From positions 26,064 through 90,063 of the forward strand of contig JAFPVR010000116.1 of the NCBI GenBank assembly GCA_017395245.1: a DNA stretch of 64,000 nt, given 5' to 3'. Source of the stretch: Bacteroidales bacterium. Lineage in GTDB: Bacteria > Bacteroidota > Bacteroidia > Bacteroidales > WCHB1-69. The position numbers and the translations under genes are program-made. A model generated the notes under the pieces. It was given only the letters and a program-made list of their open reading frames with translations. It was not told where the DNA came from and made no database searches. This document shows positions 3,941-64,000 of this stretch, piece after piece; within the stretch, counting starts at the first letter, position 1, and each line of letters opens with the position of its first letter.

Positions 3941-4131
3941 GAGCTGCGGCATTCGTGCCGCAAAAAAAGCCGCCAGGAATGGCGGTGCTCCTAAAACAAA
4001 GCCGCCAGGAATGGCGGTGCTCCTAAAACAAAGCCGCCAGGAATGGCGGTGCTCCTAAAACAAAGCCGCCAGGAATGGCGGTGCTCCTAAAACAAAGCCG
4101 CCAAGGATGGCAGCGCTCCTAAAACAACAAA
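3938..4131. repeat. Hairpin element with right half amplified (L1R5 array)
   Basis: One left half (TAGGAGCTGCGGCATTCGTG, then CCGC) is followed by five right halves of a 32-bp unit centred on GCCGCCAGGAATGGCGGTGC and ending CTCCTAAAAC. Each half is itself a small palindrome, and left and right halves are imperfect complements of each other. The last copy has diverged. The array fills the gap before nqrA. Single-copy and left-amplified relatives lie at 54336 and 41382. Confidence 0.9.
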
Positions 4132-7500: not shown

Positions 7501-8583
7501 ATGTCAAAGAAACCACATAGATTTAACGCCCTGATCGACGCCATGGACACGTTCCTGCGCACGCCCGCGACGGTCACGGACGGTCGTTGCCACGTGCGCG
7601 ATGCGGTGGATATGAAGCGCATCATGATCACGGTGATGATTGCGCTGACCCCCGCGTTGGTTTTCGGCTGGTGGAACGTTGGTTTTCAACACTTCGATAT
7701 GATTAATAATGGTGGTAGCATTGCAACTCGTTGGCAATGTCTCTGGTACGGCTTCCTGAAGTGGCTGCCGTTGGTCATTGTGACCTACGTGAGCGGACTC
7801 GGGGTGGAGGTGCTTTTTGCGCAGATCCGCAAGGAGGAAGTCGCGGAAGGTTTCTTTGTCACGGGCTTTCTCATCCCCATGATTATGCCGCCCGATGTGC
7901 CATTGTGGATTGTTGCGGTGGCCACCATCTTCGCCGTGATTTTCGGCAAGGAGGTCTTCGGCGGTACGGGCTACAACTTCTTGAACCCTGCACTGTTAGC
8001 CCGTGCTTTCGTCTTCTTCGCCTACCCGTCGGTGATTTCCGGCGACCAAGTCTGGGTCTCCGGTGTTGATGCCGTTACGTGCGCGACCCCGTTATCCTTC
8101 GTCATGAACGGTCACCCCGAGGCGGTGCCTTCCACGGCGATGCTGTTCTTTGGTACTATCCCCGGCTGCATCGGGGAGACCTGCAAATTGGCCATTCTGC
8201 TCGGTGCGGCCATCCTCCTCGTTACGCAGGTGGCCGACTGGCGCATTATGCTCTCCGTCTTCACCGGCGGCTATCTGACGGCGGCCATCTTCCATGTCAC
8301 AGGACTTTGTCCCGTCGAAGCCCATGACCAACTGCTGATGGGTGGCTTCATGTTTGGCGCGGTCTTCATGGCCACCGACCCCGTCACCGCTGCGCACACC
8401 CGCGACGGCAAGTACATTTATGGACTGCTCATCGGCATCCTCGCCATCCTCATCCGCACCCTCAACAAGGGCTACCCCGAAGGCATGATGCTCGCCATCC
8501 TGCTGATGAACATCTTCGCCCCGCTCATCGACTACTGCGTGGTCCAAAGGCACATTAAACGACGGGTGAGACGTAAGACTTGA
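7501..8583 (+). CDS. nqrB: Na+-translocating NADH:quinone reductase subunit B
   Basis: 360 residues with about eight to ten hydrophobic membrane segments (for example MITVMIALTPALVFGWW, VPLWIVAVATIFAVIFG). NqrB is the main membrane subunit carrying covalent FMN and the Na+ path. The FMN-attachment threonine is T196 in VTCATPLSF, equivalent to the SGAT-like site of the family, and GGTGYNFLNPALLARAF is the conserved loop before it. FMATDPVTAAHTRDGKYIYG is the conserved late motif. The last codons and the TGA stop lie within the long heptamer array at 8568-8658. Confidence 0.95.
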   Translation: MSKKPHRFNALIDAMDTFLRTPATVTDGRCHVRDAVDMKRIMITVMIALTPALVFGWWNVGFQHFDMINNGGSIATRWQCLWYGFLKWLPLVIVTYVSGLGVEVLFAQIRKEEVAEGFFVTGFLIPMIMPPDVPLWIVAVATIFAVIFGKEVFGGTGYNFLNPALLARAFVFFAYPSVISGDQVWVSGVDAVTCATPLSFVMNGHPEAVPSTAMLFFGTIPGCIGETCKLAILLGAAILLVTQVADWRIMLSVFTGGYLTAAIFHVTGLCPVEAHDQLLMGGFMFGAVFMATDPVTAAHTRDGKYIYGLLIGILAILIRTLNKGYPEGMMLAILLMNIFAPLIDYCVVQRHIKRRVRRKT

Positions 8584-8658
8584 GACTTGAGACTTAAGAC
8601 TTGAGACTTGAGACTTAAGACTTAAGACTTGAAACTTGAAACCTGAAACTTGAAACCC
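8568..8658. repeat. Tandem heptamer repeat, 13 units of RAGACTT/GAAACYT
   Basis: Thirteen contiguous 7-bp units beginning gagacgt, aagactt, gagactt and ending gaaacct, gaaactt, gaaaccc. It fills the nqrB-nqrC junction and contains the nqrB stop. The reverse complement of the same unit (AAGTCTC) forms the array at 16761-16830. Confidence 0.95.
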
Positions 8659-16723: not shown

Positions 16724-16831
16724 TTTTAGACTTTAGACGTAAGACTTTGGGGCTCTTTCGCAAGTCTTAAGTCTCAAGTCTCAAGTCTCAAGTCTCAAGT
16801 CTTAAGTCTCAAGTCTCAAGTCTCAAGTCTA
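16724..16831. repeat. Tandem heptamer repeat, 10 units of CAAGTCT plus degenerate flank
   Basis: 16761-16830 is ten contiguous 7-bp units (caagtct, taagtct, caagtct and so on). 16724-16760 has looser steps (ttttaga, ctttaga, cgtaaga). The panC TAG stop (16829-16831 on the minus strand) falls in the last unit. The unit is the reverse complement of the nqrB-nqrC array. Confidence 0.93.
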
Positions 16832-20089: not shown

Positions 20090-20096
20090 TTTAAAT

Positions 20097-20152
20097 GGTT
20101 ATGGGTTATTGGTTATTGGTTATTGGTTATGGGTTATGGGTTATTGGTTATT
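20097..20152. repeat. Tandem heptamer repeat, 8 units of GGTTATK
   Basis: ggttatg, ggttatt three times, ggttatg twice, ggttatt twice. It covers the tcdA-yqeY junction and encodes the last four residues and stop of tcdA. Confidence 0.95.
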
Positions 20153-20932
20153 GAAACATGGTTCCTGTTCGCTCGCTCGTGCCACTGTCTGTACGAGGAG
20201 GCCGGCGAGGGTGAAGCCGAAGATGACGGTGATGTGGGCGACGGTGCCGTTGGTCTGTACTTTGTGGAAGGCGTCGGGAGTGGTGTCTTCTTCGAGGTCA
20301 GTGGGTTGGTTGTCAAGAACTTCGGGGGAGTAGACGCAGAGGAACTTGCGCTCGGGGTATTGCTGCCAGTGCTTGAACTTCTTTCGCAGGCCGCGGGCGA
20401 GCGGGCAGTAGCTGACTTTCCAGAACTCATCGACGCGGATCTTGGTCGGGTCGAGCTTGAGGGCCGAACCCATGGAGGAGAACAGCGTCACGGGGAGGCT
20501 GGTGGCGTGGAGGATGAGGTGGGCCTTGGGCGATAGACTGTCGATGGCGTCGATCACGAAGTCGTACGCTTCGAGGTGGAAGCTGTCGGCAGTGTCGGCG
20601 GCATAGACTTCGGCGCGGACGGTGATGTCGGCGTCGGGATTGATGGAGAGGAGTCTGTCGCGGAGAACTTCGACCTTCAATTTTCCGACAGTCTCGGTGG
20701 TGGCCTGCACCTGCCGGTTGAGGTTGGTGACGTTCACGGTGTCGCAGTCCACGAGGGTGAGGTGGCGCACACCGCTACGCACGAGGCTTTCGGCGCACCA
20801 GCCGCCCACGCCGCCCACACCGAAGAGGATGACGCGCACATTGGCCAGTCGCGCCATCGCCTCGCCACCGAGCAACCGCTCCGTGCGGTCGAACATGCCG
20901 GCAGTGCTAAGGTTTTCTTCGTTTGCGGTCAT
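20141..20932 (-). CDS. tcdA: tRNA threonylcarbamoyladenosine dehydratase (TcdA/YgdL)
   Basis: 263 residues. ThiF/E1-like Rossmann protein: MFDRTERLLGGEAMARL, the nucleotide loop VILFGVGGVGGWCAE, LVDCDTVNVTNLNRQ and VIDAIDSLSPKAHLI. TcdA uses ATP to cyclise t6A37 in tRNA to ct6A. The C-terminal membrane-like segment (FGFTLAGLLVQTVAR) is typical. Its start overlaps the stop of the upstream gene by 4 bases. The terminal residues FNNQ come from a heptamer repeat. Confidence 0.92.
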   Translation of the reverse strand: MTANEENLSTAGMFDRTERLLGGEAMARLANVRVILFGVGGVGGWCAESLVRSGVRHLTLVDCDTVNVTNLNRQVQATTETVGKLKVEVLRDRLLSINPDADITVRAEVYAADTADSFHLEAYDFVIDAIDSLSPKAHLILHATSLPVTLFSSMGSALKLDPTKIRVDEFWKVSYCPLARGLRKKFKHWQQYPERKFLCVYSPEVLDNQPTDLEEDTTPDAFHKVQTNGTVAHITVIFGFTLAGLLVQTVARASEQEPCFNNQ

Positions 20933-22345: not shown

Positions 22346-22462
22346 GTATGTAGAGCCGTCATAATATGGCGGCTCTACCCTCGGAGTTACACCGGAGTTA
22401 CACCGGTGTAGAGACGCAAAATTTTGCGTCTCTGCAGAGCCGTCATAATATGGCGTCTCTAC
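22346..22462. repeat. Three GTAG...CTAC palindromes in a row
   Basis: GTAGAGCCGTCAT/ATGGCGGCTCTAC (22346-22374), GTAGAGACGCAAAA/TTTTGCGTCTCTGC (about 22409-22436) and GAGCCGTCATAATATGGCGTC then TCTAC (22437-22462). Between the first two is a duplicated CGGAGTTACAC. The sialidase-fusion gene ends at a TAG (22459-22461 on the minus strand) supplied by the third palindrome. Confidence 0.88.
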
Positions 22463-36560: not shown

Positions 36561-36614
36561 AATGCTGAATGCTGAATGCTGAATGTTGAATGTTGAATGC
36601 TGAATGTTGAATAG
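36561..36614. repeat. Heptamer repeat, about 7 units of TGAATGY
   Basis: tgaatgc twice, tgaatgt twice, tgaatgc, tgaatgt, tgaatag after a partial unit, between two terminator hairpins. Confidence 0.9.
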
Positions 36615-41381: not shown

Positions 41382-41674
41382 TAGGAGCTGCGGCATCCCT
41401 GCCGCAGAAAGCCATCAGGAGCTGCGGCATCCCTGCCGCAGAAAGCCATCAGGAGCTGCGGCATCCTTGCCGCAGAAAGCCATCAGGAGCTGCGGCATCC
41501 CTGCCGCAGAAAGCCATCAGGAGCTACGGCATCCTTGCCGCAGAAAGCCATCAGGAGCTGCGGCATCCCTGCCGCAGAAAGCCATCAGGAGCTGCGGCAT
41601 CCTTGCCGCAGAAAGCCATCAGGAGCTGCGGTATCCTTGCCGCAGAAAAGGTCGCCAGGAATGGCGACACTCAT
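41382..41674. repeat. Hairpin element with left half amplified (L8R1 array)
   Basis: Eight tandem 34-bp units of the form AGGAGCTGCGGCATCCCTGC then CGCAGAAAGCCATC (each containing GCGGCA-tccc-TGCCGC) are followed by one right half (GTCGCCAGGAATGGCGACAC). Unit-to-unit differences are single bases (cct/ctt, gctg/gcta). It is the mirror arrangement of 3938-4131. Confidence 0.95.
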
Positions 41675-53775: not shown

Positions 53776-53780
53776 GGATA

Positions 53781-53820
53781 AAGCATGCGCCGTGTCAATA
53801 GAACACGGCGCATGCTTTTT
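53781..53820 (+). terminator. Strong terminator after batD
   Basis: AAGCATGCGCCGTGT ... ACACGGCGCATGCTTTTT, a 15-bp perfect stem with a 7-base loop and a T-run. Confidence 0.93.
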
Positions 53821-53930
53821 AGGAGGGTCGGCATTCCTGCCGACCGTGCAGGAGTCCCGGCATCCCTGCCATAGGAGGGTCGGCATTCCTGCCGACCGTA
53901 CAGAAGTCTCAGCATCCTTGCCGACCTGCC
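53820..53930. repeat. Tandem left-half hairpin units
   Basis: Four units related to the TAGGAG element: TAGGAGGGTCGGCATTCCTG then CCGACC, twice well conserved and twice degenerate (GGAGTCCCGGCATCC, GAAGTCTCAGCATCC). No matching right half. Confidence 0.8.
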
Positions 53931-53977
53931 GAACAAGCGACAACCTAAAACAGTCGCAGCACGCGCTTAAGGGTTTC

Positions 53978-54082
53978 GCAAGGGGTTGGCAAGGCTTTCG
54001 CAAGGGGTTGGCAAGGGGTAGGCAAGCAAAAATGCTTGCTTGGGCTTGCGAAATACTTGCGATATGCTTGCTATATGCTTGC
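53978..54082. other. Mirror array of helically phased GCAAG/CTTGC boxes
   Basis: GCAAG begins at 53978, 53989, 54000, 54011 and 54022 (exact 11-bp steps); CTTGC begins at 54035, 54045, 54056, 54067 and 54078 (10 or 11-bp steps). The centre GCAAGCA-AAAA-TGCTTGC is a perfect hairpin. 11 is not a multiple of 3, so this is not a coding repeat. It lies in a 665-base gene-free stretch (53776-54440) that otherwise holds the terminator, hairpin units and the cas3 promoter region; 54107-54290 shows nothing I recognise. Confidence 0.85.
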
Positions 54083-54319
54083 GAATGCGGGTGCTGGGGG
54101 TGTTGAGTGCCATTCTCTCCGATATGCGGTGAGCTAAGCAGGACGGCGATGACAGTAGGGAACGGATGCCGCGCGGGTTCAAAAGCTCCGGAGGGGATGC
54201 AAAGCTGAAGGGAACTCACCGAACGGCAGCAACTTATCAAACGTATACTAACACGCCTCTGTTAATAAAATTTTCGAGAATTTATTCCGACTGGTCCGGT
54301 TTTTGAATCACCGATGTTG

Positions 54320-54327: not shown

Positions 54328-54335
54328 CAGCGTCT

Positions 54336-54390
54336 TAGGAGCTACGGCATTTCTGCCGCAAAAAGGTCGTCAGGAATGGCGTATCTCCTA
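54336..54390. repeat. Single-copy TAGGAG...CTCCTA hairpin in the cas3 leader
   Basis: Left arm TAGGAGCTACGGCATTTCTG then CCG, loop CAAAAAGGT, right arm CGTCAGGAATGGCGTATCTC then CTA: a 23-bp imperfect stem. It is the one-left, one-right form of the arrays at 3938 and 41382, placed in the cas transcript's 5' leader. Confidence 0.88.
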
Positions 54391-54440: not shown

Positions 54441-56654
54441 ATGAGCAAAATGTGTGAAAGAAGGCTTATGACGGAACAACAGTGTTCGGAAACAATATCT
54501 CACGTTAGACAACCTGGCTTGGAAACACAATCCAACGAAGATCATCAGCAAGGTGTGGCAGAACTGGCCTCGAAATTTGCCAGAGAATTTGGCATGGCCG
54601 AATGGGGACGTGTCATGGGATTGTTGCATGATAAAGGAAAAGAGAAAAAATCCTTCCAACAACATATCATTAAAGAGAGCGGATTGAACCCCGAAACAAG
54701 GGTTGATGGCGATTACCGACACGCATACGTAGGGGCCTTGATAGCTAAGGAATTATTTCCCAATTCACATTTGTTGATGGATAACGCCTTGATGGGACAT
54801 CATAGGGGGCTTTATGATGATGGAGACATGAAAGAATTGATGAAGTTGGAAATCCCCAAAGATGTGATTGTTGAGAAAATTGATGCAGAATTTGAAATTC
54901 CACAATTAGAGAAACCTGTTAAGGGCTACCAAAAAGACATCCATCATCTGGAACGTATGCTCTATAGCTGCCTGGTGGATGCTGATTTTTTGGACACGGA
55001 AGCTTTTATGCAACCCGAACAAAGCCGTTTGAGAGGGAATTACGATTCTTTGGCGACATTGGAAGAAAGATTGGAGACGTTTTTGGCAGAATTGAAGAAA
55101 AACGCTCCAGATACGGAAGTCAATAGGATTAGGAACGAGGTTCAAAATTGGTGCGTCAAAGAGAGTGTTAATCCGCCTGACTTTTACAGTTTGACAGTTC
55201 CTACGGGTGGAGGTAAGACATTGGCCTCCATTTTGTGGGCCATCAAACATGCCATCAAGAATGACCTGAAGAGGATCATTATAGCGATCCCTTATACGAG
55301 CATCATCACGCAAACAGCAAGTGTGTTGAGAAATATATTCGGCGAGGAGAATGTGCTCGAGCACCACTCGAATGTTGACAGGTCTGCATTCGACGATAGG
55401 GAATTGACTCAAAAAATGAAATTGGCGACAGAAAATTGGGATTACCCTATCATTGTGACGACGAATGTTCAATTATTCGAATCGCTGTTTAGCAATAAGC
55501 CATCCAATTGTCGCAAATTGCACAACATTGCCAAAAGCGTTCTGATAATGGATGAAGTGCAAACCTTGCCAACCGACTTCCTGCAGCCTATTGTTGACAC
55601 TTTTGACACTCTGAAGAGAGTGTTTGGCGTATCCGTTTTGTTTACAACTGCCAGCCAGCCTGTGCTATCCGGCTTGATACGGGGAACTAATTCGTTTGTT
55701 TCTTTTGAAGGTTTGCCGAATATTCACGAAATCATCCCTGATGGAACCAATCTTCACGATCGGTTGCGCCGTGTGGAACTGAAATTTGAGAAAACCCCAG
55801 AGAATTATGACGAAATAGCACAAAAAATATCCCATCATTCACGTGTGCTTTGCATTGTGAACACAAGAAATGATGCCAAAGAGATTTACTCACGGCTACA
55901 CAAAGAAGGAATTTGTCTGCATCTGTCAAGAATGATGTGCCCTGACCATGTGACGGAAACCATTGACAAGGTGAAATTGGCGCTTAAAGAAACGTCAAAT
56001 ACAACAATCAGGGTGGTGGCGACCCAACTTATTGAAGCGGGCGTAGATATTGACTTCCCCGTAGTGTTTCGACAAGAAGCCGGACTTGACTCTGTACTTC
56101 AAGCGGCAGGCAGATGCAATAGAGAAGGAAAATTGGAAATGGGAAGCACCTTTGTTTTTGGTTTGCAGAAGCCATTGCCTCCCGGATTTATGACACAAAC
56201 TAATAACGCCCGACTTGCCATGACGGATCGTGAATATGATTGGTTCTCGCCAGAAGCGATGGAGGCCTACTTCAAGCAACTTTATTCACGTGTTAATAGT
56301 TTTGACAAGAAGAACATCAAAGATTTGTTATACAAGGCTGAAATACAATTCGAAACAGCTGCATTTGCATTCCATTTGATTGATGATAATACAATTTCTG
56401 TTATCGTGAATTGGAAGAATAGCATGGAGTTAGTAGAAAGATTAGTCAGAGAAGGTCCATCCTATTCGTTAATGAAAGCATTGTCTCAATTCAGCGTCAA
56501 CGTGCGGTATGGAGATATGAAGAAGCTGGTAGAGGCTGGTGCAATCGAAGAGGTGCTTGAAGGAATCTATGTAATTCGAGACCAGTCCTTTTACAGCAAT
56601 GAAGTTGGTCTTGTTACAGATAATCATTGGTTAGAAGAATCATTAATAGTATAA
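54441..56654 (+). CDS. cas3: CRISPR-associated nuclease-helicase Cas3 (type I-C)
   Basis: 737 residues. The N-terminal HD nuclease has EDHQQGVAELAS (first histidine) and LLHDKGKEK with the HD pair at residues 63-64. The helicase has Walker A VPTGGGKT (about residue 253), DEAD-box variant DEVQ (about 371) with SAT-like TTASQP, and motif VI QAAGRCNREG. Cas3 is recruited to Cascade-bound DNA and degrades it. It leads an operon with cas5 only two bases from its stop. ATGs at 54450 and 54468 are alternative starts. The operon is clearly more AT-rich than the genes to its left. Confidence 0.96.
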   Translation: MSKMCERRLMTEQQCSETISHVRQPGLETQSNEDHQQGVAELASKFAREFGMAEWGRVMGLLHDKGKEKKSFQQHIIKESGLNPETRVDGDYRHAYVGALIAKELFPNSHLLMDNALMGHHRGLYDDGDMKELMKLEIPKDVIVEKIDAEFEIPQLEKPVKGYQKDIHHLERMLYSCLVDADFLDTEAFMQPEQSRLRGNYDSLATLEERLETFLAELKKNAPDTEVNRIRNEVQNWCVKESVNPPDFYSLTVPTGGGKTLASILWAIKHAIKNDLKRIIIAIPYTSIITQTASVLRNIFGEENVLEHHSNVDRSAFDDRELTQKMKLATENWDYPIIVTTNVQLFESLFSNKPSNCRKLHNIAKSVLIMDEVQTLPTDFLQPIVDTFDTLKRVFGVSVLFTTASQPVLSGLIRGTNSFVSFEGLPNIHEIIPDGTNLHDRLRRVELKFEKTPENYDEIAQKISHHSRVLCIVNTRNDAKEIYSRLHKEGICLHLSRMMCPDHVTETIDKVKLALKETSNTTIRVVATQLIEAGVDIDFPVVFRQEAGLDSVLQAAGRCNREGKLEMGSTFVFGLQKPLPPGFMTQTNNARLAMTDREYDWFSPEAMEAYFKQLYSRVNSFDKKNIKDLLYKAEIQFETAAFAFHLIDDNTISVIVNWKNSMELVERLVREGPSYSLMKALSQFSVNVRYGDMKKLVEAGAIEEVLEGIYVIRDQSFYSNEVGLVTDNHWLEESLIV

Positions 56655-56656
56655 AT

Positions 56657-57361
56657 ATGGAATATTACGACAAAGAATTTTGTTTGGAGGTGTGGGGGCC
56701 GATGGCCTGCTTCACCCGACCAGAGCTAAAAGTGGAAAGAGTGAGCTATGATATCATCACCCCATCGGCCGCGCGAGCTGTGTTTGAAGCTATCTTTTGG
56801 AAACCTGCCATCCATTGGCAGATAACAAAAATTGAAGTGTTAAATCCTATTAAATGGACAACTATCAGACGTAATGAAGTAGGTGCCGTCGCATCGAACA
56901 AGAAGAAGCAAATTTTCATAGAGGAAGAGAGACAGCAAAAGAACTCGTTGTTGCTTCAAGATGTCCATTATCGGATTTGGGCCAAGCTAGTTTTCATCCC
57001 CCAATGGAAGAGAAAAGAGACCAAGAACGCCCAAATTGACATAGAAGAAGCCGATCTGCTTAAGAGAGATGAGAATCCTGGCAAGTATAACGCCATGTTT
57101 GAACGCAGGGCGAGCAAAGGCCAGTGCTTCAACCAACCTTATTTGGGCACACGAGAGTTTTCAGCCTCTTTCTGTTTAGTAAAGCCAGAACAAGAAGATT
57201 TGAAAGACCCTATTGACGAGAGTCGCGACCTTGGCATTATGCTTTACGATATGGATTTTGAAGGCAATCCCGATAAACCCGAAGCAATGTTTTATCGTGC
57301 TCGTATGGAGCACGGCGTTATTATTGTTCCACCAATTGACAGTAAGGAGGTTTTGAGATGA
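56657..57361 (+). CDS. cas5c: Cas5c (Cas5d), crRNA-processing Cascade subunit
   Basis: 234 residues from ATG 56657 (MEYYDKEFCLEVWGPMACF). Type I-C lacks Cas6, and Cas5 cuts the pre-crRNA at the repeat hairpin. Family features: FTRPELKVERVSYDIITPSA, ARAVFEAIFWKPAIHWQI, NEVGAVASNKK and CFNQPYLGTREFSA, with LGIMLYDMDF near the end. The TGA overlaps the next ATG (ATGA). Confidence 0.95.
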   Translation: MEYYDKEFCLEVWGPMACFTRPELKVERVSYDIITPSAARAVFEAIFWKPAIHWQITKIEVLNPIKWTTIRRNEVGAVASNKKKQIFIEEERQQKNSLLLQDVHYRIWAKLVFIPQWKRKETKNAQIDIEEADLLKRDENPGKYNAMFERRASKGQCFNQPYLGTREFSASFCLVKPEQEDLKDPIDESRDLGIMLYDMDFEGNPDKPEAMFYRARMEHGVIIVPPIDSKEVLR

Positions 57362-59064
57362 TACTGCAAGCGTTATATGAATATTACAAAAGATGCGACA
57401 ATTTGCCACGAAAAGGAATGGAACTCAAAGAGATTGGCTTCTTAATTGTCATAGATAAAGAAGGTCATTTTCTGAAATTTGAAGACAGAAGAATTGACAA
57501 GAAGCAAGCTCAGCAATTTCTTGTTAAAAAGCATGTGGGGCGTACAAGTGCTCTTGCAGCAAACCACCTGTATGATAATAGTGGTTATGTTTTGGGATAT
57601 TCTGAAAAGGGAGATGCGCGGGCTCAATACCAAACTTTCAAAGATAAAGTGAATGCCATTTTTGAATTACATCCGGATAATCCTGATATAACAGCTGTTC
57701 ACAAGTTCTATCAAGAAGAGCAAAGTGCGGTTTTCGAATTAATGCAAAAAGACTCACTTTGGCCGGAAATTTTGAAGAATTTAAATAAGAAGTTCTCTAC
57801 ATTCTCTTTTCTTATTGAAGGAGATACGGAAATCGTAGCTGCAAAGAAGGAACTATTAGATTTACTTGAAAACGACGTTAACGATTGCGATCAGATATGT
57901 TTGGTGTCAGGAGAGAGAGGACATTCTGTCGAGACAACTACGGCAACCATGATTCCTGGCAGTCAAGCAACAGCTAAGCTTGTCTCATTTCAACTGAATT
58001 CAGGATATGATTCATACGGGAAAGAAAAAGGAGGCAATGCGCCAATTAGCGAGGAAGCGGAATTTGCATATACAACAGCTCTAAATTACATGCTCCGTTC
58101 CGATTCGAGAAACAAATTCCTTATTGGCAATCGCACTTTTTTGTTTTGGGCATCCAAAGATAACGAAGCAGGTAACCAGGCAGAAGAAAGCATCTTTAGT
58201 ATGTTTGGCAACAACGAACAAGAAGATGACCCCAACCGAAATATTGAACAGGTAAGAAAAACGTTCAACTCCATATATTCAGGATCTTTGAGAACGAATT
58301 TGGATGACAAGTTCTATATCCTTGGTCTTGCGCCAAACTCAGCACGTATCGCGGTCACATATTGGTCTGAATTGCCACTAAAAGAGTTTGCGTCGTTGAT
58401 ATTGCGTCACTTTGAAGATATGGACATTGTTGACACGCGAAAAGAGAAAAAGCCCTATATGGGACTGCGTTCTATCTTGGCTGCAGTCACATTAGGCGGA
58501 AAATCGTCGGATGCTACGCCAAACTTGCCCGAAGCTGTCGTGAAAAGCATTTTCCAGGGTATTTCATACCCTTATACGCTGTTTGCAGGATGCATCCGTC
58601 GTATTCGTGCCGAACAAAGTCTCAATATTACCCGAGCCGCCATCATCAAGGCTTATTTGAACAGAAAAACAAATGATAATCAAAAAAAAATAGGAAAAAT
58701 GTTAGACATCCAAAACACCAACCAAGGCTACCTTTGTGGCCGATTGTTTGCCGTGCTTGACAAGATTCAAGACGAGGCAAACCACCAGCATTCTATCCGC
58801 GAACGGTATATGAACTCAGCAAGTGCCACACCTGCCGCCGTATTCGCTACCATTCTCAACCTGTCATACCATCATTCGGAGAAGTTAACCGAGGGACGGA
58901 AAGTTTGGTTTGAGAAAATCAAACAGGAAATCGTTGATAAGATAAGTTCCGACGGTTTCCCGGCTCACCTTGACCTACAAGATCAAGGAAGATTCTTTGT
59001 GGGCTATTATCAGCAAACACAATGGTTTTACACCAAGAAAGAAGAACAAACAACTGAAGAATAA
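57358..59064 (+). CDS. cas8c: Cas8c (Csd1), Cascade large subunit
   Basis: 568 residues. [20 protein letters not shown] at the start, [50 protein letters not shown] and [13 protein letters not shown] near the end are Csd1 features. It recognises the protospacer-adjacent motif and may also give a short small-subunit product by internal initiation, as known in other I-C systems; a candidate internal start was not identified. Coupled to cas5 upstream; 20 bases to cas7. Confidence 0.95.
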
Positions 59065-59084
59065 CGATTAAAATTTATAGTATT

Positions 59085-60170
59085 ATGTCAGAATTAAAAA
59101 ACAGAATTGATTTTGTGTACATTTTCGATGTACAAGATGGTAACCCCAATGGCGATCCCGACGCAGGCAATCTGCCTCGTGTGGACGCGGAAACAGGTAT
59201 GGGACTCGTGACCGATGTGTGCCTGAAGCGCAAAGTACGTAATTACGTGCAGATTGTGAAAGATTGTTCGCAGGGATTTGATATTTATGTGAAAGAAAAA
59301 GCTGTACTTGGAAGAAGTCATGTTGCGGCATTCAAGGCACTGGGGTATAAATTAGGTGAAGACTCAAAAAAACAAATACCTAACGAATTAAAAGGCGAAC
59401 TTGAAGAATCCTCCTTGTTTGAAGGACTCTCAATCACCGAAGAAGATGAAGCTGAATATTTGGTAGTTGAAGGAGATGCTGATAAAAAGGCAATCCAAGA
59501 ATGGTTAAAAGAATCTGGATTAAGCAAAGATGCTATCGCTTTTGTTAAAACAGCACTGAAAGATGCTAAAGCAAGGAAGCAAACTTCTGAAGAGACCGAA
59601 GGAGGTCGTCAATGGATGTGTTCTAACTTTTATGACATCAGGAGTTTCGGTGCTGTATTATCGTTAAAATCAGCTCCTAACTGTGGTCAAGTCCGCGGTC
59701 CTATTCAATTTACTTTTGCCCGGTCAGTGGATGCTATTGCAACCGCTGAACATTCCATCACGCGCATGGCTGTGGCAACAGAAAAAGAGGCCGAGAAACA
59801 AGGTGGGGACAATCGTACGATGGGTCGCAAAGCTATAGTTCCCTACGGACTCTATGTCTGCCATGGTTTCGTCTCAGCCAATCTCGCCAAACAAACTGGT
59901 TTTACCGAAGAAGATTTGGAACTGTTCTGGGAAGCCTTGAAAAACATGTTCGACATTGACCGATCTGCAGCTCGTGGGTTAATGAGTGCCCAAAAACTGA
60001 TTGTATTCAAACACGATTCAGTATTAGGGAACGCTCCCGCCAACAAACTTTTTGATCTGGTCAAGGTTGAAAAGAACACCACAGATGCACCACGATCATT
60101 CAAAGATTACAATGTTACTGTAAATGAAACTGCTATACCTGCAGGTGTGCATGTAGAATATCTTATCTAA
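59085..60170 (+). CDS. cas7c: Cas7c (Csd2), Cascade backbone subunit, with internal insertion
   Basis: 361 residues, longer than the roughly 290 usual for Csd2. The core is clear: [86 protein letters not shown] and [14 protein letters not shown]. Between about residues 85 and 170 there is an acidic, helix-forming segment ([20 protein letters not shown], then [18 protein letters not shown]) before the conserved WMC. Multiple copies of Cas7 coat the crRNA spacer. Confidence 0.95.
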
Positions 60171-60173
60171 GCA

Positions 60174-60845
60174 ATGTACACCGAAGACGAAATGCTCATG
60201 TTGTCGGGGATTCAGCACTTCGTGTTCTGTCCCCGGCAGTGGGCATTGATTCACATCGAACAGGTTTGGTCGGACAATCGGCTGACGGTCGAGGGACGAT
60301 TGCTTCACCAACAGGCGGATGACCCATTCTATCGGCAGAAAAACGGAGATTGCGTTTCTTTACGTTCCGTATCCATCGCCTCAAAGGAATTGGGTCTGTA
60401 CGGCTTTTCTGATGTCGTGGAGCTGAGGCCTTCGGATTACGCTACGGATTGCATCCGACATCCCTCATATCCGGGCTATTGGAAACCGTTCCCCGTTGAA
60501 TACAAGCGAGGACATTCGAAGCCGGATGAACGGGACGAAGTTCAATTGGTTGCGCAAGTCATCTGCCTTGAAGAGATGCATGGCATAAAAATTGACCATG
60601 CATACCTTTTTTATTGGGAGGTCCGCCGAAGAGAGGAAATCGCCATAAACGAGAATCTCCGGCGGTTGACTAAACAATACGCAGATGAAATGCACCGGAT
60701 ATTCAAAACGGGAGTCGTCCCCAAAGCGGAGAAAAGTCGCAAATGCTACCATTGTTCGTTGTTCGATATTTGTCTCCCCGACACCAAAGTCAAACTGTTA
60801 GCCAAAAACTACTTGAAAAAGAATCTTTATGAGGAAACTCCTTAA
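60174..60845 (+). CDS. cas4: Cas4, adaptation nuclease
   Basis: 223 residues. One N-terminal cysteine (HFVFCPRQWALIH) and a C-terminal cluster (KCYHCSLFDICLP) supply the iron-sulphur ligands; GFSDVVEL and VEYKRG are the RecB-type nuclease motifs. Cas4 trims prespacers and sets their PAM orientation together with Cas1-Cas2. Its end overlaps cas1 by 17 bases. Confidence 0.95.
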   Translation: MYTEDEMLMLSGIQHFVFCPRQWALIHIEQVWSDNRLTVEGRLLHQQADDPFYRQKNGDCVSLRSVSIASKELGLYGFSDVVELRPSDYATDCIRHPSYPGYWKPFPVEYKRGHSKPDERDEVQLVAQVICLEEMHGIKIDHAYLFYWEVRRREEIAINENLRRLTKQYADEMHRIFKTGVVPKAEKSRKCYHCSLFDICLPDTKVKLLAKNYLKKNLYEETP

Positions 60846-61851
60846 TGTGTTATATGTCACCACTCCAGAGTCTTATTTGAGCAAAGACGGGCTGAATGTG
60901 GTGGTTTCCGTCAATCAAGAAGAGCGATTCCGAATCCCCATTGTCAACATTGAAGGAATTGTGACCTTCGGTTATATGGGCGCAAGTCCGGGACTGATGA
61001 GGCTCTGTGCCGACAATGGGGTTTCCTTGTCGTTTTTGTCGCCCAACGGTCGTTTCATCGGTCGTTTTCAAGGACCGGTTCATGGAAACGTTTTGCTTAG
61101 GAAAACCCAGTATCAAACTGCTGACAATGAGGATTGTGCCTTGCATTTTGCGCGTCTGTTTGTTGCGGGCAAAATCCAAAATTACAAGGCCATACTTCAG
61201 AGATTCATTCGTGACAATGGCGCCAACAGCGAAGTTGAAGCGGCGATACCATTGTTAGATTCGAGCAAACATCGGGCATTGAACACGAATAATGTTTCAA
61301 GTCTGATTGGGGTTGAAGGCGATGCGGCTAATACCTATTTTGGCGTGTTTCCGAATCTGATTCTCCATCAGAAAGAAGGGTTTCCGTTCCAAGGGAGGAA
61401 CAAACGCCCTCCCAAAGATGCGGTAAATGCCTTGCTCTCGTTCGTTTATACCTTGTTGGCCAACGAAACGGCTGCTGCCTTGGAAACGGTTGGACTTGAT
61501 CCATACGTCGGTTTTCTGCATTCACTAAGACCCGGACGGACCTCGTTGGCTTTGGATTTGATGGAAGAGATGAGGGCTTATTTAGGTGATCGGTTGGTGC
61601 TTTCCCTCATCAATCGCAAGCAAGTGGCACCCAATGATTTTGTGCGGCAGGGCGAAAGTGGTGTAGTGATGACAGAAAACTGTCGCAAGACAGTCCTGAC
61701 CGCGTGGCAAAATAGGAAAAAGGAGACTTTTGTGCATCCGTATTTGGAAGAGAAAATTCCCATCGGACTGCTCCCATACGCCCAAGCATTGCTGCTGGCA
61801 AGGACCATTCGGGGAGATATTGATGATTATCCTGTTTTTTTGATTCGTTAA
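60829..61851 (+). CDS. cas1: Cas1, CRISPR integrase
   Basis: 340 residues. MRKLLNVLYVTTPESYLSKD at the start; the metal-site glutamate in GVEGDAANTYF, the histidine in GFLHSLRPGRTSLALDLME and the acidic residue following it are the active-site motifs. It is the type I-C Cas1. It starts within the end of cas4 and is followed by cas2 after 4 bases. Confidence 0.97.
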   Translation: MRKLLNVLYVTTPESYLSKDGLNVVVSVNQEERFRIPIVNIEGIVTFGYMGASPGLMRLCADNGVSLSFLSPNGRFIGRFQGPVHGNVLLRKTQYQTADNEDCALHFARLFVAGKIQNYKAILQRFIRDNGANSEVEAAIPLLDSSKHRALNTNNVSSLIGVEGDAANTYFGVFPNLILHQKEGFPFQGRNKRPPKDAVNALLSFVYTLLANETAAALETVGLDPYVGFLHSLRPGRTSLALDLMEEMRAYLGDRLVLSLINRKQVAPNDFVRQGESGVVMTENCRKTVLTAWQNRKKETFVHPYLEEKIPIGLLPYAQALLLARTIRGDIDDYPVFLIR

Positions 61852-61855
61852 GACT

Positions 61856-62146
61856 ATGATGGTGCTTATTACATACGATGTGGAGACAGCGACCCTTGCG
61901 GGGGCAAGGCGATTGCGGCGAGTGGCCAAGGAGTGTCAGAATTACGGGCAACGCGTGCAAAATTCTGTGTTTGAATGCGTGTTGACAGAAGCGCAGTACG
62001 CCATGTTGAGAAATAAGATCACCTCGCTTATTGACGAGGAGAAAGACAGTGTCCGTTTCTACTTTCTTGGGAACAACTGGAATAACCGAGTGGAGTTTGT
62101 TGGAAGAAAGACTTCGTTCGATGTTACTTCGGAATTGATAATTTGA
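61856..62146 (+). CDS. cas2: Cas2
   Basis: 96 residues. MMVLITYDVETATLAGARRL with Asp8 of the ferredoxin-like fold, YGQRVQNSVFECVLTEAQY and VEFVGRKTSFD at the end. With Cas1 it forms the spacer-integration complex. Last gene of the operon; the leader and array begin behind it. Confidence 0.97.
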   Translation: MMVLITYDVETATLAGARRLRRVAKECQNYGQRVQNSVFECVLTEAQYAMLRNKITSLIDEEKDSVRFYFLGNNWNNRVEFVGRKTSFDVTSELII

Positions 62147-62314
62147 CGATGCGAACGCCCAGCATTGCAAAAAATATTGTATTTTCGCGCCGCCTGATAA
62201 TGAATGCGTTATCGGATGTCCCGTCGTTGATGATGTTTGTTTTGACGGCAAGCATTTCGGTTCGCGGAGCAGGTGCTCTAAAGCACTGACACACAAATAC
62301 AAAAGAAGCATACA
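62147..62314 (+). promoter_or_regulatory. CRISPR leader
   Basis: 168 bases between the cas2 stop and the first repeat, more AT-rich than the array. A TATTTTCG box at about 62173 may start array transcription. GGTGCTCTAAAGCACTGACA at about 62270 is a short hairpin close to the first repeat. Confidence 0.65.
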
Positions 62315-63999
<1,685 letters not shown>

Positions 64000-64000
64000 C

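Follow-up and report, generated by a model that had tools for sequence, protein, structure and literature searches.

Arrays of 11-bp direct repeats lie on either side of the promoter in the ParR/parC centromere of plasmid R1. Porphyromonas gingivalis belongs to the Bacteroidales, the order which its BrickBuilt elements share with the array described here. According to Klein et al. (2015, PMC4596501), BrickBuilt elements are dispersed and always intergenic, and they combine a tandem minisatellite of variable copy number (23-nt unit) with conserved flanking modules, a leader and a tail with small inverted-repeat ends; of the 19 copies, five have one flank only and three have neither, and terminators are predicted around 10 of the 19. 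REP/BIME repeats, found with RAYT, are described (PMC2817692, PMC3733652, PMC6006769) as multi-copy intergenic repeats that are small and palindromic, and heptamer direct repeats (TAACTGA type) occur in Beggiatoaceae, Cyanobacteria and some Bacteroidetes, mostly in intergenic positions and by a mechanism which PMC4679880 gives as not known.

We analysed a stretch of 64,000 nucleotides (the window) from a Bacteroidales bacterium. It contains an array of ten short boxes that is probably a copy of a MITE-like minisatellite, non-coding, intergenic and dispersed in one clade of Bacteroidales, an element which would have spread as such and would have no role in cas. G000 denotes the window's own assembly (own genome), other G numbers denote relatives, C a contig and L a locus label.

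The ten-box array and its neighbours

All ten boxes of the array (five GCAAG, then five CTTGC; Table 1) were recovered to the base where the sequence-only reading had placed them, together with the perfect symmetry GCAAGCA-AAAA-TGCTTGC at the centre. The array is a real, non-chance feature: a four-box pattern with at most three mismatches had four matches in the window, all of them at the array (53967-54082), and none in 100 dinucleotide-preserving shuffles of the window. Both arms were detected as 11-bp arrays by TRF. The proposal that all boxes face one side of the DNA holds within an arm but fails across the centre, where the innermost boxes start 13 bp apart and the next step is 10 bp. Since the arms are mirror images, one strand is able to form a long hairpin in which the boxes pair and the spacers are internal loops; positions 53960-54100 fold as single-stranded RNA with -65.6 kcal/mol (z = -6.7), and the array stretch folded as DNA has z = -6.5. 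The similarity to the copy at G000:C82 amounts to 90% identity over 53969-54105 (L001 1530-1666 vs L002 1501-1639).

Table 1. Coordinates of the array and of neighbouring features in the window
Feature	Positions	Strand	Remarks
Terminator-like stem	53780..53818	+	16 bp perfect, 7-nt loop, T run; 3' of BatD-like gene
Two copies of 51-bp repeat with GGAG-tagged REP-like palindromes (GGTCGGCATTCCTGCCGACC)	53820..53922	+	
Truncated anchor	53932..53958	-	last third of conserved ~90-bp module
Left arm	53967..54026	+	five GCAAG boxes (starts 53978, 53989, 54000, 54011, 54022; steps 11, 11, 11, 11) and degenerate TTAAG at 53967
A-rich 8-nt centre, CAAAAATG	54027..54034	+	
Right arm	54035..54082	+	five CTTGC boxes (starts 54035, 54045, 54056, 54067, 54078; steps 10, 11, 11, 11); array ends at 54082
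Right edge of window copy	54083..54105	+	still common to copy at G000:C82
cas operon and long CRISPR array	54441..64000		begins with cas3 at 54441

As first described, the array sits between the terminator-like stem and the cas genes, a gap which also holds, unmentioned in that description, the REP-like repeats and the truncated anchor directly to the left of the array. The stem is a neighbour of the element and not part of it, and the 51-bp REP-like repeats are a separate repeat family adjoining it. The truncated anchor agrees in 27 of 27 bases with the anchors found in two places of the relative G003. By a codon-based gene caller, cas3 begins 358 bp past the array end; the cas genes 3' of the array are type I-C by NCBIfam, and the 56-60 kb block, part of the cas operon, has a GC content of 0.42 (vs 0.50-0.59 in the window's other 4-kb blocks).

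GGAG-tagged REP-like palindromes (GGCATTCCTGCCG type) are present in the window not only at 53820-53922 but also at 54330-54390, 41383-41648 and 3962-4127, and similar repeats of GGAG plus hairpin surround two Y1_Tnp genes on own-genome contigs C8 and C95, which we take to be RAYT-like. A short 11-bp array, CGGAGTTACAC, at 22382-22406 has the same unit as the array beside the anchor on own-genome contig C113.

Dispersed copies and the anchor module

Copies of the array were found in five places of the own genome, each on a contig of its own, at E <= 2e-10; a cut-off of E <= 10 gave 15 matches in all. The four copies outside the window adjoin steroid-reductase/TonB, Abi-like, efflux/radical-SAM and WYL/methyltransferase genes (Pfam annotation of ten proteins, comprising the eight flanking genes, the window's BatD-like protein and one RAYT-like protein, with a family match in nine); in four of five places the arrays thus lie beside non-cas genes. 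In 15 of 15 nearest relatives, neither boxes in step nor cas3 occur in the 1.46-1.5 kb that follow the gene of the BatD-like protein; this test, confined to that place, detected both in the own genome. A cas-specific role of the array is thus not supported, and a cas-specific element was rejected on these two counts. Two own-genome copies and one copy in G037 have in common the array and ~240 bp of its 3' flank. No match to the window array was found in phages.

A DNA search of the genus gave matches at E <= 0.001 in 8 of 40 genomes. A mirrored pattern (three GCAAG in step, followed 8-25 nt on by CTTGC) was present in 9 of the 40, with 43 overlapping matches vs 0 for the backwards control pattern, and in 10 of 104 genomes of the family (2 of 17 genera), with 46 matches vs 1. 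All nine genus positives fall within a set of 16 genomes, counting the own genome, that have a BatD-like identity of 72% or more, and none of the 21 with a BatD-like identity of 57% or less was positive for this pattern; a BatD match was lacking in three genus genomes, one of which, G006, was positive in the DNA search only. A collection of 84,980 species contained at least 120 stretches with four GCAAG boxes at 11-bp steps, many from unrelated bacteria. Among the 80 stretches listed, five had two or more CTTGC boxes in step nearby (L102, L117, L120, L129 and L131), four of them from Bacteroidales and one, L131, from Rhodalgimonas, and a broader scan of the collected loci for mirrored arrays added L150 (Bacteroidaceae), L161 (Bacteroidales) and L183 (Prevotella). 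The GCAAG tandems in unrelated bacteria indicate that a tandem array alone is not special; the mirrored layout nearly is.

The arrays at G000:C112 and G028:C37 occupy the same place and differ by three substitutions (hand count) and a 22-bp insertion; the left arm is 22 bp, i.e., two units, longer in G028 and G036 than in G000:C112. At G036:C44, 60 of 63 bases of the array centre are as in G000 (hand count on the alignment), the outer right units are missing (the length of the gap is no multiple of 11) and so is the anchor. The promoter-like stretch downstream is kept about equally, therefore the array at this three-way orthologous place is not exceptional in its conservation. G003:C218 has the right-hand block of G000:C112 (91% identical) together with an anchor and an AACTC-type 11-bp array, where G000 has the GCAAG mirror array. 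G038, G030, G039, G029 and G037 share the right-hand block, and no anchor or array was found there within up to 700 bp (95 bp in G030). None of the sites compared was a clean empty site; they differ in a neighbouring gene.

The anchor, a conserved module of ~90 bp (consensus GTGATTCGCTGATTTAGGTTGTCAC...TTGCGACTGNTTTAGGTTGTCGC) with three imperfect repeats ~31 bp apart and a mean column identity of 87% in 16 copies, was matched 54 times, in 12 of the 40 genomes of the genus; its first unit, with at most two mismatches, was found in 8 of 40 relatives and in 0 of 16 genomes from other families (control 0). The collected loci yielded 53 distinct anchor matches, and 36 located by anchor sequence alone were retained, leaving out three found via GCAAG arrays, five without the first-unit start, those shorter than 44 bp and two with too little flank. 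On the array side, 22 of the 36 anchors have an 11-bp array, one a 22-bp array and 13 none (24 of 43 have an array when short anchors are counted too). The background was 4 of 183 own-genome intergenic windows (two at lag 11, two at lag 22), a sample including the window itself and some contigs picked for weak matches, which if anything inflates it; in relatives it was 1 of 53 (G036) and 0 of 73 (G022). The excess of 23/36 over the own-genome background has a Fisher p of 4e-18, with the proviso that anchors of related genomes are not fully independent. The units beside the anchor vary (GCAAG, AACTC, TTCGAT, ATCTACGA and others), and many GCAAG arrays have no recognisable anchor. A conserved ~90-bp anchor abutting 11-bp arrays of differing sequence is new here. 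The genes around 41 anchors have mixed orientations. Searches with the anchor against plasmids and phages, and with the exact 27-base pattern against viral contigs, gave no match, and inverted ends were not seen by eye in the anchor alignments.

A second mirrored 11-bp family with TTCGA/TTCGAT boxes (TAGTTCTTCGA / ATCGAAGAACT) occurs at L265:3253-3333, L264:7611-7708 and L268:12598-12686, and in several loci such arrays adjoin GCAAG boxes. Promoter-like leaders ending in GACGTTCTTTGACATATTG or similar, ends which are presumably boxA-like, lie just downstream of anchor or array (L254:10380-10560, L002:1700-1862); the L254 leader recurs at four further own-genome places, and for both leaders the nearest gene ahead is on the opposite strand.

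Among intergenic repeats of the own genome, period 7 and its multiples dominate and period 11 with its multiples comes second, in a first sample enriched for contigs with GCAAG-like matches. In a larger sample, which again includes the window and some contigs picked for weak matches, 18 of 98 period-7 arrays were mirrored, and among 16 period-11-type arrays the mirrored ones were the window's two arms only. Mirroring as a trait of 11-bp arrays alone was rejected, since heptamer arrays share this layout. The window has many heptanucleotide tandem arrays, e.g., at 8567-8653, 16761-16830, 20096-20153 and 36561-36612, and the CAAGTCT array at 16761-16830 is a mirrored one.

Anatomy of the mirrored arrays and rival readings

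We gathered 30 mirrored arrays and counted 29 (L131 of Rhodalgimonas was dropped; L005 and L045 are one orthologous pair). Leaving aside the step with which each arm begins, 149 of 160 steps measure 11 bp, six 22 and five 10, with spacers that vary, and this bears out the suggestion that box and phase are kept over the bases between them. The centre has 8 nt in 20 arrays and 9 nt in nine. The innermost boxes are GCAAG/CTTGC in 25 arrays, CCAAG/CTTGG in four and mixed in none, in a search that permitted mixed pairs. Arms are often unequal and range from 1 to 12 boxes (e.g., 1+7, 10+2). The 10-bp step is in the right arm in 17 arrays vs the left in two, partly by construction since arrays were oriented so that it falls on the right; independent of that choice, A exceeds T in the loop on that strand in 16 of the 17. 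Across the 30 arrays, adjacent spacers within one arm have 0.67 identity (n=100), while opposite-arm spacers agree at 0.456 (n=30), close to non-opposite spacers (0.437, n=98) and spacers of other arrays (0.475, n=5440). Alike neighbours and unlike opposites are what local duplication predicts, and with the matching of the boxes they indicate that box symmetry is kept and full hairpin pairing is not, the units being duplicated locally. A called gene lies inside one of the 30 arrays, the other 29 being free of any.

In the reading as a MITE-like minisatellite, the body of the element is made of 11-bp units, each with the 5-bp box GCAAG and six variable bases, in two mirror arms round an 8-9-nt centre; the arms may have grown in steps of whole units, through template switching or slippage, and the copies may owe their spread to recombination or to a transposase supplied in trans. 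In the window it would simply sit 3' of the BatD-like gene, ahead of the cas block, without a role in cas expression. A cruciform or the end of a mobile element, both of which had been suggested, stand as possibilities, and transposition is what we infer. No transposase could be tied to the array or the anchor; the two Y1_Tnp loci examined, of three, have a different repeat around them. A RAYT as the array's mover was set aside, the palindromes at those two loci being other ones. Counting against a MITE-like element are the failure to find a clean empty site, with neither terminal inverted repeats nor target-site duplications coming to light, the lack of a linked transposase, the 13 of 36 anchors without an 11-bp array, the unequal arms of many of the 29 arrays, the loss on the right in G036 that is not a multiple of 11, the tandem-only GCAAG 11-bp arrays in unrelated bacteria, and the kept orthologue centre (60/63), which could also mean function.

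The array may bind protein, although this is a candidate role only. In the fullest form of this idea, which we consider unlikely, a dimeric or filament-forming protein would read one GCAAG box per helical turn in each arm and organise the DNA or control the neighbours, perhaps as at plasmid centromeres or iterons. The constancy of box and 11-bp step over varying spacers and the central part kept at the orthologous site in three species are consistent with it, and the symmetric change of the innermost boxes (four CCAAG/CTTGG, none mixed) also suits a symmetric operator. However, quite different motifs (AACTC, TTCGAT and ATCTACGA units) stand at the same 11-bp period beside the same anchor, one arm may hold a single box and another twelve, 31 of 40 genus genomes lack a match to the mirrored pattern, and the gene orientation around the 30 arrays is not uniform (11 convergent, 12 tandem, 5 divergent, 2 undetermined; codon-based gene calls), so no single regulatory position emerges from the orientation of genes around arrays and anchors.

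It is similarly doubtful that the array is a plain mutational by-product, i.e., an unselected tandem repeat slipping by 11 bp and mirrored by an accident of template switching. A genome rich in other tandem repeats of period 7 and its multiples, some of them mirrored, the likeness of adjacent units and the tandem-only GCAAG arrays in unrelated bacteria would fit such an origin, but the mirrored layout with its 8-9-nt centre recurs at 29 places (including one orthologous pair) in several species, some sharing flank, and 11-bp arrays are strongly tied to the conserved anchor. We give a low probability to the anchor being an active element which makes or recruits 11-bp repeats by inserting beside arrays or seeding them, with mirror hairpins arising later; such arrays would have a fixed unit length of about one helical turn and a unit sequence that is free and specific to the locus. 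The G003 anchor with its AACTC-type array in the place of the GCAAG mirror array of G000:C112 was noted in favour of such seeding.

A functional RNA hairpin, in which the transcribed array would act as a terminator, a 3'-end protector, an antisense or a small RNA, is very unlikely: the fold (z ~ -6.7), the apical boxes, which are complementary to each other in all 29 arrays, and the 11 of 30 arrays between convergent genes are in its favour, whereas opposite-arm spacers pair at chance level, loop-closing positions in the 29 arrays have no covariation beyond shuffles, the arms are unequal, five of 30 copies lie between divergent genes, and eight loci had no Rfam family at the gathering score (only 17 sub-threshold microRNA hairpins). 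It is extremely improbable that the array serves the type I-C system as a cas leader or a regulatory element, or that it is an origin of replication: it lies 358 bp before cas3 in the own genome and the GC skew, slightly negative over 40-52 kb and positive over 52-64 kb, turns between the 48-52 and 52-56 kb blocks, but the four other own-genome copies adjoin non-cas genes, several dispersed copies fit a single origin poorly, the window has three further sign changes of the skew, and the cas block differs in base composition.

Comparison with known systems

In the accessible literature on repeats, BrickBuilt, parC, RAYT and minisatellites, a scope outside which most subscription journals lie, 11-bp mirrored arrays with such an anchor were not found in titles or the openings of abstracts. 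With dozens of arrays and anchors, what had been a single odd array becomes a family open to comparative study; if the anchor directs the sites of the arrays, it would offer a handle on the birth of bacterial minisatellites and on the constancy of their unit length.

The window array resembles parC of plasmid R1 in its five plus five boxes at 11-bp steps and differs from it in being mirrored and in having several chromosomal-looking copies. With REP/BIME the own genome shares the GGAG-tagged palindromes round two RAYT-like genes, but the GCAAG array, ~105 bp long in the window, lacks the layout of a tag plus short hairpin. Like the heptamer repeats (PMC4679880) it is a short-unit tandem array, and heptamer arrays are common in the own genome too; unlike them, with their unit of 7 and, in the available text, no description of an anchor, it has a unit of 11, a mirror layout and an anchor. 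The closest known kind appears to be the BrickBuilt MITE of Porphyromonas gingivalis, to which we liken the array by description and not by sequence: GCAAG arrays are likewise dispersed, intergenic and multi-copy, with tandem units variable in number and a conserved module beside the array (23 of 36 anchors adjoin an 11- or 22-bp array; the window has the last third of the anchor). They depart from BrickBuilt in their 11-bp unit, in arms mirrored round a centre and in having no inverted-repeat ends that we could find, and the same anchor adjoins arrays that differ in sequence, so that the unit length, fixed at 11 bp, is separated from the unit sequence, which is free, unlike in the one-unit minisatellite of BrickBuilt.
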